Source: Halorussus amylolyticus
Lineage (GTDB): Archaea > Halobacteriota > Halobacteria > Halobacteriales > Haladaptataceae
DNA length: 54,529 bases
Reading direction: 5' to 3'
Assembly: GCF_004143485.2 (NCBI RefSeq)
Contig: NZ_ML974132.1
Location: forward strand, 311,034 to 365,562
The position numbers were made by a program, and so were the translations under genes. This document shows positions 43,717-54,500 of this stretch, piece by piece (within the stretch, counting starts at the first letter, position 1; the number at the start of each line of letters is the position of its first letter). Below the pieces are notes generated by a model. The model was not told the origin of the DNA and made no database searches. It saw nothing but the letters and a program-made list of their open reading frames with translations.

Positions 43717-43989
43717 TAGGAACGTCGTTCGACTGACGAGTGTGCGCGCGACTCCGATTCCGTCGAGACCGAACCGCCCTGCCGGTCGGGGGGGGGGGGG
43801 GGGGGGGGGGCCCCCCCCCGCCCCCCCCCCCCCCCCCCCCCCCCCCCCGGGGGGGGGGGGGGGGGGGGCCCGCCCCCCCCCCGCCGCGAGACTCCGAATC
43901 GACGCCGATTCGGGGGTGTAATTTTCGGCTTGCAAGATTTATGAAGGTGGGACGTAAACCCCGCGAACACCAGCCCTCCATCGAGCATC
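43717..43989. other. flaI-flaJ spacer with G/C tracts
   Basis: 273 bases between two genes that are normally adjacent. It holds the second copy of TCGTTCGACTGA (43725-43736), a G/C homopolymer block (43788-43883) and an AT-rich ATTTATG (about 43938-43944) some 46 nt before flaJ. That last element may give flaJ its own promoter. Confidence 0.5.
43788..43883. repeat. alternating G and C homopolymer block
   Basis: As written: G23, C9, G, C28, G20, C3, G, C10, G. The two strands are self-complementary over long stretches and could form hairpins, cruciforms or G-quadruplexes. Such sequence is also typical of consensus error at a hard-to-sequence GC tract. The exact length is not trustworthy. Confidence 0.6.
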
Positions 43990-49028: not shown

Positions 49029-49124
49029 CCGATTCGTCGGCCGAGGACGTATCGGAACCAGACCGCGGCTACGGTCGCTCACGGGCACCATAACAAAGAT
49101 GCGTGCGGCCCACTCGTAAGACGA

Positions 49125-49209
49125 GGAAGGGTAGCTCAGTGGTAGAGCGCCACCGATTCTACGGTGGCAGCCTGACAGGCTTCGCGTGGTTCGACTCCCG
49201 CCCCTTCCG
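49125..49209 (+). tRNA. tRNA-like gene with long variable arm, isotype unassigned
   Basis: 85 nt. The acceptor GGAAGGG/CCCTTCC with G73, a regular D-arm (GCTC AGTGGTA GAGC), a variable-arm hairpin (AGCCT GAC AGGCT) and a T-loop TTCGACT are all present. The anticodon hairpin is odd: GCCACCG/CGGTGGC leaves a 6-nt loop ATTCTA, or an 8-nt loop with a 5-bp stem. TCT, TTC or CTA could be read as anticodon. The T-stem has one extra T (GCG-T-GG/CCCGC). It may be a non-standard tRNA, a pseudo-tRNA or another structured RNA. Confidence 0.5.
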
Positions 49210-49265
49210 CTCCGTTCGGTTTTCTGCGAGGCGTTTCATCGCCGAGCAATTGCTCCGAACGGAGC
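49209..49265 (+). repeat. tRNA-tail hairpin A
   Basis: GCTCCGTTCGG (49209-49219) pairs exactly with 49255-49265. The enclosed sequence TGCGAGGCG-CGCCGAGCA carries a small inner stem. It starts on the last base of the tRNA-like gene. The same inner loop returns at 49389-49412 with different outer arms. Confidence 0.75.
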
Positions 49266-49275
49266 GGGGGACGGC

Positions 49276-49365
49276 GCGGAGTCGAGCAAGCAAGTCGCAT
49301 GCCCGGACGCGCAACGAACGAAGTGAGTGAGCATCCCGGAACGTCTTGCCCGGTTCGACTTCCGC
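49276..49365 (+). repeat. tRNA-derived unit 1
   Basis: About 90 bases beginning GCGGAGTCGAGC and ending in a degenerate copy of the tRNA T-arm and acceptor 3' side (GGTTCGACTTCCGCCCCTTCC, extending to 49371). GGAGTCGA and TCGACTTCC at its ends are nearly complementary, so the unit can fold end to end. Confidence 0.6.
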
Positions 49366-49372
49366 CCCTTCC

Positions 49373-49430
49373 GTTTTCTGCCGACACACTGCGAGGCGTT
49401 TAGCGCCGAGCATACGCGTCGGCAGAAAAC
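49373..49430 (+). repeat. tRNA-tail hairpin B
   Basis: GTTTTCTGCCGAC (49373-49385) pairs exactly with 49418-49430. The inner loop sequence matches hairpin A, but the arms differ while staying complementary. Confidence 0.75.
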
Positions 49431-49436
49431 TGATTC

Positions 49437-49526
49437 GGAAGGGAGTCGAGCAGACGAGTCGCACGCCCGCGCAGGGAGCGAAGCGACCGAGCAGGACCGT
49501 CTCGGCGAGTTCGACTCCCGCCCTTC
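49437..49526 (+). repeat. tRNA-derived unit 2
   Basis: It begins GGAAGGGAGTCGAGC (same first seven bases as the tRNA-like acceptor) and ends GTTCGACTCCCGCCCTTC. GGGAGTCGA (49441-49449) and TCGACTCCC (49511-49519) are exact complements. The size of about 90 nt is close to a tRNA, but no anticodon arm is present. Confidence 0.6.
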
Positions 49527-49589
49527 TGCTTTTGCGACGAACTACTCTGCTCGCTGTGAGTCGTCGCTAACAGAATCAATTTCAGCCAG

Positions 49590-54456: not shown

Positions 54457-54500
54457 GGGGGGGGGGGGGGGGCCCCCCCCCCCCGGCCCCCCCCCCCCCC
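54457..54500. repeat. G16-C12-GG-C14 tract at the window end
   Basis: A G/C homopolymer block like that at 43.8 kb, 60 bases after the last gene and 29 before the window end. The tail after it is low complexity and unreliable. Nothing else is seen in 54399-54529. Confidence 0.6.

Follow-up and report, generated by a model that had tools for sequence, protein, structure and literature searches.

What does a gene with the shape of a tRNA and without an anticodon do in a haloarchaeon? The question is raised by positions 49125-49209 of the window, the whole 54,529-nucleotide (nt) stretch of the Halorussus amylolyticus genome analyzed here (contig NZ_ML974132.1, positions 311,034 to 365,562 of the forward strand). 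This gene belongs to a class-wide family of tRNA-shaped RNAs that are probably regulatory rather than translational, because they have no conserved anticodon and because their complementarity to a site upstream of a small GIY-YIG nuclease gene changes in step between species. As judged from sequence comparison, the most likely reading, to which we assign a probability of about 0.5, is that of a tRNA-like antisense RNA that would act on the GIY-YIG transcript.

In the covariance-model check proposed by a preliminary description of this locus, cmscan matched 49125-49209 to the tRNA family (RF00005) with 44.2 bits against a gathering score of 29; ARAGORN also detects these positions as a tRNA and assigns no anticodon. 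The predicted fold (z score of -3.9 relative to shuffled sequences) is a cloverleaf with an acceptor stem of 7 bp, a D arm of 4 bp, a variable arm of 5 bp, and G73. The place of the anticodon arm is taken by a hairpin with a loop of 6 nt (8 nt if the stem is shortened to 5 bp), and the T stem, GCG-U-GG/CCCGC, carries a single bulged base. The gene and its parts are as follows:

49090-49098, + strand: TATA-like element ATAACAAAG, 35 to 27 nt upstream of the RNA, at the AT peak seen in 86 upstream regions.
49125-49209, + strand: tRNA-like RNA without anticodon, 85 nt, the mature region being set by homology.
49150-49167, + strand: hairpin standing where an anticodon arm would be, CCACCG ATTCTA CGGTGG; 6 of 7 pairs show double changes class-wide, and the loop is variable.
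49169-49181, + strand: variable arm AGCCT GAC AGGCT in the predicted fold; 3 pairs show double changes.
49170-49190, + strand: antisense segment GCCTGACAGGCTTCGCGTGGT, reverse-complementary to the site in the GIY-YIG leader at G000:C1:238193-238213 (17 nt exact, 20 of 21 overall).
49187, + strand: bulged U of the T stem, within the antisense core (alignment A2); GUG/CAC versus GCG/CGC is a compensatory change in L072 and L076.

By blastn, the RNA is present at full length in 26 of the 28 genomes of the host's family, its own genome included, with 83 to 95% identity in the 25 others. In two Halorussus genomes (G014 and G027), no copy was found either by blastn or by R1, a covariance model built from alignment A2 of the host-family RNAs. 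This alignment has an unchanging acceptor stem, GGAAGGG/CCCUUCC, and almost every position of its D arm and T loop is likewise fixed; the sequence extraction required GGAAGGG, so that the full invariance of the acceptor is partly a result of how the sequences were selected, and a model alignment of 24 sequences free of that requirement has an equally invariant acceptor. R1 gives 107.3 bits to the gene in the window, 85 to 111 bits to the host-family members scored, and at most 44 bits to ordinary tRNAs. At E ≤ 1e-6, 199 of the 391 Halobacteria genomes searched, from 48 of the 86 genera, contain a match, with scores of 62.7 to 110.7 bits among the matches listed. When 84,980 bacterial and archaeal genomes were scanned for an exact pattern, 94 stretches were returned; nearly all of the 80 that were listed come from named haloarchaea, the sole other source being a metagenome-assembled genome labeled "Euryarchaeota archaeon." A phage or virus origin was considered and dropped, there being no match in viral_contigs or in phage records. 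The RNA is 78 to 132 nt long; the variable region and the hairpin that stands in for the anticodon arm account for this range, both being free. Several genomes carry both short and long forms (L191-L196 with L072 and L074-L079), and a short form is present on the Halorientalis plasmid NZ_CP019069.1, the one plasmid copy found. The predicted fold of the long forms leaves the linker ahead of the T arm unpaired, and in several of them it has no variable stem.

The most conserved parts of the RNA are the acceptor stem and the D arm. In the anticodon position, no anticodon is kept, because the loop differs almost everywhere, with 21 sequences among the 26 genomes. These data bear directly on the idea that the RNA is an odd but functional tRNA, either translational or serving as an aminoacyl donor (for example, Ser- or Sec-like, in view of G73 and the long variable arm). 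It does share with tRNAs of the RF00005 family the cloverleaf, an intact 7-bp acceptor stem, D and T arms with the T loop UUCGANU, and a discriminator base, which is G73 in most members. It differs from them in having an arbitrary hairpin for the anticodon arm, a bulged T stem, a discriminator that can be G, A, or C, and long forms whose predicted fold is missing the variable stem, and half of the sampled haloarchaeal genomes lack it; we therefore consider such a role very unlikely. An ordinary intron-containing tRNA is ruled out, as the 84- to 88-nt forms consist in this region of a 5- to 7-bp stem and a 3- to 8-nt loop, too small for an intron.

The fold itself is supported by covariation. 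The 24 distinct sequences aligned, which represent several families, have 95.7% of cells paired and 10 pairs with changes on both sides, counts that are biased towards the model structure to which this alignment was fitted; the covariation score exceeds those of 500 out of 500 shuffles and of every slid version. In some genomes, GCG/CGC of the T stem is replaced by GUG/CAC, and in most Natrialbaceae the bulge is placed differently (GUGG-C-G/CCCAC). The view expressed in the preliminary description that the structure is under selection has been borne out, as has its assessment of the tRNA as non-canonical; the long variable arm, G73, the 6- or 8-nt loop, and the extra T-stem base that it listed all appear in the predicted fold, and the candidate anticodons that it read (TCT, TTC, or CTA) are not kept in relatives. 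It had recognized the unusual gene, while the class-wide conservation and the GIY-YIG match lay beyond its view. Short copies of the 3' end trail the gene, as might be expected if it were a tRNA in decay or the scar of an integration and its matches elsewhere were due to chance, but the near-invariance across the class, the compensatory changes, and the covarying antisense match described below contradict this explanation, which we give hardly any credence. In 86 upstream regions, AT content is highest at -35 to -28 relative to the RNA. This peak matches the position expected for an archaeal TATA box, although the signal is promoter-like only and transcription is putative.

The bulge-bearing strand of the T stem (GGCUUCGCGUGGU and its neighbors) reads as the reverse complement of a site that precedes a small gene for a GIY-YIG nuclease (PF01541; UPF0213 in the PDB, entries 1zg2 and 1ywl), a gene present in 386 of the 391 genomes. 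By eye, the sites come 14 to 40 nt after the stop codon of a 49-amino-acid DUF7563 zinc-finger gene and are followed by the GIY-YIG gene at once or by surE and then GIY-YIG; the latter order, with surE between site and nuclease gene, is seen in Halobellus and its relatives (L334-L340). An exact match of 13 to 24 nt was found in 64 of the 75 genomes for which both the RNA and the leader were in hand, and the 11 genomes without a match of at least 13 nt all belong to Natrialbaceae. With shuffled leaders, a match of at least 13 nt occurred in 4 of 4500 trials. The variable-arm part of the site differs between families.

The match covaries between species, which constitutes the strongest evidence for the predicted antisense relationship. 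Beyond the shared 12-nt core, the run of matching bases averages 2.69 nt with the genome's own RNA versus 0.68 nt when the RNA is taken from another genome (0 of 20000 permutations); with 17 genera represented by one genome each, the values are 2.49 and 0.55 nt (0 of 3000). Variants of the core shift jointly: RNA with GGGCUCC goes with the site GGAGCCC (f3/g11), and in G022 the RNA GGGUUCGUGUGGU is paired with the site ACCACACGAACCC. The own-genome duplex was the stronger one in 21 of 24 comparisons, and where two forms could be compared (G112 and G264), the GIY-YIG leader is matched better by the long form than by the short one. Genomes also tend to carry both partners: in Haloferax, the site pattern is found in 13 of 13 species with the RNA and in 0 of 2 without it, and the RNA-by-site two-by-two table outside Natrialbaceae reads 76/33/25/156, a table that ignores shared ancestry and relies on a site pattern that misses variants and includes chance coding hits. 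A prediction was also upheld: G260, a member of Natrialbaceae chosen for its leader site, has an RNA of the GCGUGG type with a 16-nt match.

The same duplex could, in principle, be read at the DNA level, by a protein (an autoregulating GIY-YIG nuclease, a repressor, or a recombinase) that binds it both in the tRNA-like gene and in the GIY-YIG promoter region. Such binding would suit the location of the Halorussus site, which has a TATA-like stretch on one side and the start codon on the other, as well as the conserved ACC prefix of the site, which has no complementarity to the RNA. However, the conserved block of the site stops where the complementarity stops, its extension varies by genus in step with the RNA, which would be needless for a fixed protein site, and its position relative to the downstream start varies. 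We regard binding of this kind as unlikely. A fixed TATA box was looked for before the leader site, and the AT signal there is weak.

Several observations weigh against an antisense RNA that acts on the GIY-YIG transcript. The location of the Halorussus site just mentioned lies ahead of a would-be leaderless start, so that the site may fall outside the mRNA. The distance from the site to the GIY-YIG start ranges from 12 nt to more than 3 kb, with surE intervening in some genera, and is steadier on the other side, to the DUF7563 stop codon; GIY-YIG is therefore only a putative controlled gene. Two genomes, G027 and G049, have the site without the RNA. Finally, most Natrialbaceae keep the RNA, in its GUGGCG form, without a match at GIY-YIG, and pairing with that leader is therefore not its only role. 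A replacement target in Natrialbaceae was sought and rejected, as most matches to CGCCACGAGGC are inside coding sequence or at unrelated positions, and they share no leader. Several leaders of this family retain ACCACGCGcccc despite the T-stem variant GUGG-C-G (L165-L175 and L197-L202 against L125-L136). A noncoding stretch of a single genome (G298; L330, reverse strand, 500-511) matches the T-stem strand of Natrialbaceae over 12 nt, probably by chance.

The Natrialbaceae also lend some weight to a reversal of roles, in which the leader would serve as a sponge or destabilizer of the tRNA-like RNA and the real role of the latter would rest in its acceptor stem and D arm, the parts that are conserved best. 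Any partner for that acceptor/D domain is itself putative, though, and while the site in Haloferax is lost along with the RNA, the sites in G027 and G049 stand alone. We see an outside chance for this arrangement.

The preferred reading, a tRNA-like antisense RNA acting on the GIY-YIG transcript, would work as follows. The gene would yield a stable noncoding RNA with a tRNA cloverleaf in which an arbitrary hairpin replaces the anticodon arm, transcribed and processed at its ends as a tRNA is. The strand formed by the variable region and the T stem would then pair in trans with the GIY-YIG transcript, in its leader or intergenic region, beginning with the single-stranded linker and subsequently invading the weak, bulged T stem, and this pairing would alter either the translation of the nuclease message or its stability. 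The tRNA body may serve as a scaffold for processing and stability or may bind a partner through its invariant acceptor stem and D arm. The fullest version of this proposal, a new class of archaeal regulatory RNAs, spread over much of the Halobacteria, in which strand exchange between T stem and target controls a conserved GIY-YIG nuclease while the acceptor/D domain docks a putative protein, is tentative, and we would rate it well short of even odds.

How does such an RNA compare with known systems? Like trans-acting antisense small RNAs, it is encoded by a separate gene and has a short, covarying complementarity in front of a coding sequence. It differs from them in using a whole tRNA-like cloverleaf as the scaffold and a T-stem strand as the putative antisense strand, and in that the target site is not present wherever the RNA is (the GUGGCG-type Natrialbaceae). 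Nondecoding RNAs built on the tRNA fold include the tRNA-like modules of YrlA, a bacterial Y RNA, and tmRNA; these are bacterial and have known partners. They resemble the haloarchaeal RNA in putting the tRNA fold to a nondecoding use and differ in that they are not known to have its acceptor and D sequences or the antisense strand. Antisense small RNAs and tRNA-like RNAs are both known ideas, joined here in a form not met in the literature searched; that search, which left most subscription journals outside its scope, found no paper on such an RNA. The tRNA inventory of Haloferax volcanii gives 52 tRNA genes in its text, where the tRNA-like RNA is unmentioned (PMC2584109).

Downstream of the gene lie the following elements:

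49207-49267, + strand: hairpin 1, with a conserved inner element and variable arms.
49278-49373, + strand: palindromic unit 1, which closes with a repeat of the RNA's T arm and the 3' side of its acceptor.
49370-49433, + strand: hairpin 2, with the inner element of hairpin 1 and other arms.
49436-49529, + strand: palindromic unit 2, which closes with a degenerate copy.

The preliminary description had correctly reported an 85-nt tRNA-like gene with two trailing units, as verified by cmscan, ARAGORN, and repeat comparison. The two degenerate T-arm/acceptor copies are located at 49331-49373 (74% identity) and 49509-49523 (100% over 15 nt), and each unit opens with the complement of its terminal copy (GGAGTCGA ... 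TCGACTTCC and GGAAGGGAGTCGA ... TCGACTCCC). The two hairpins indeed share an inner element, CTGCGAGGCGTTT..CGCCGAGCA, and have different complementary arms of 13 to 16 nt. A 416-nt stretch of this locus has a fold z score of -8.8, and in many relatives 21 nt or more of the 3' end are likewise repeated downstream of the gene, which, together with the size of the hairpin, sets the locus apart from an ordinary intron-containing tRNA lacking such copies in relatives.

The proposed search after other tRNA genes covered 30 ordinary ones in the genome. For 9 of them, or 10 of 31 with the tRNA-like gene counted, a copy of the gene's own 3' end with 18 or more of 24 nt identical lies 107 to 153 nt downstream; an upstream copy was found for 0 of the 31. 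Among the genes trailed by such units are those for tRNA-Asn, tRNA-Arg, tRNA-Met, and an intron-bearing tRNA that has TTT at the anticodon position. The units have in common a palindrome core, GACGAGTCGCACGCCCGG..CCCGGACCGTCTCGG, with arms that fit each unit's own tRNA. Inverted and direct copies of the T arm and acceptor 3' side of the respective tRNA surround this core at window positions 49207-49529, L300 (G000:C1, after tRNA-Asn), L303, L304, L305, and L308. By these comparisons, the trailing units are a phenomenon separate from the tRNA-like RNA and general in the genome. A family of tRNA-derived palindromes, as suggested earlier, does exist, but it is not tied to this RNA. Integrated elements are known to be flanked by direct repeats of a tRNA 3' end, such as one of 43 nt (PMC3119063), and the units resemble these in ending in copies of the tRNA 3' side; they differ in being about 110 to 165 bp long, tandem, free of an integrase, and headed by an inverted T arm. 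No integrase or cargo was found between the repeats, whose spacing of 107 to 153 nt is too short for an integrase gene, and the earlier idea of a matching integrase is not needed. The units are probably products of tandem duplication or a small element that uses tRNA 3' ends. Elsewhere in the window, the long G and C runs at 43789-43883 and 54457-54500 look like sequencing or assembly artifacts rather than biology.

The RNA described here adds a conserved, genetically tractable noncoding RNA to the archaea, including Haloferax, where few trans-acting RNAs have assigned targets, and its covarying target makes the antisense idea open to testing with compensatory mutants. The tRNA-trailing units raise a second question, applicable to other haloarchaeal genomes. 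If the proposed role is correct, a full tRNA body can be retained for nondecoding use, which would account for some of the undetermined tRNA calls in haloarchaeal annotation and would provide a first lead on the regulation of UPF0213 nucleases.
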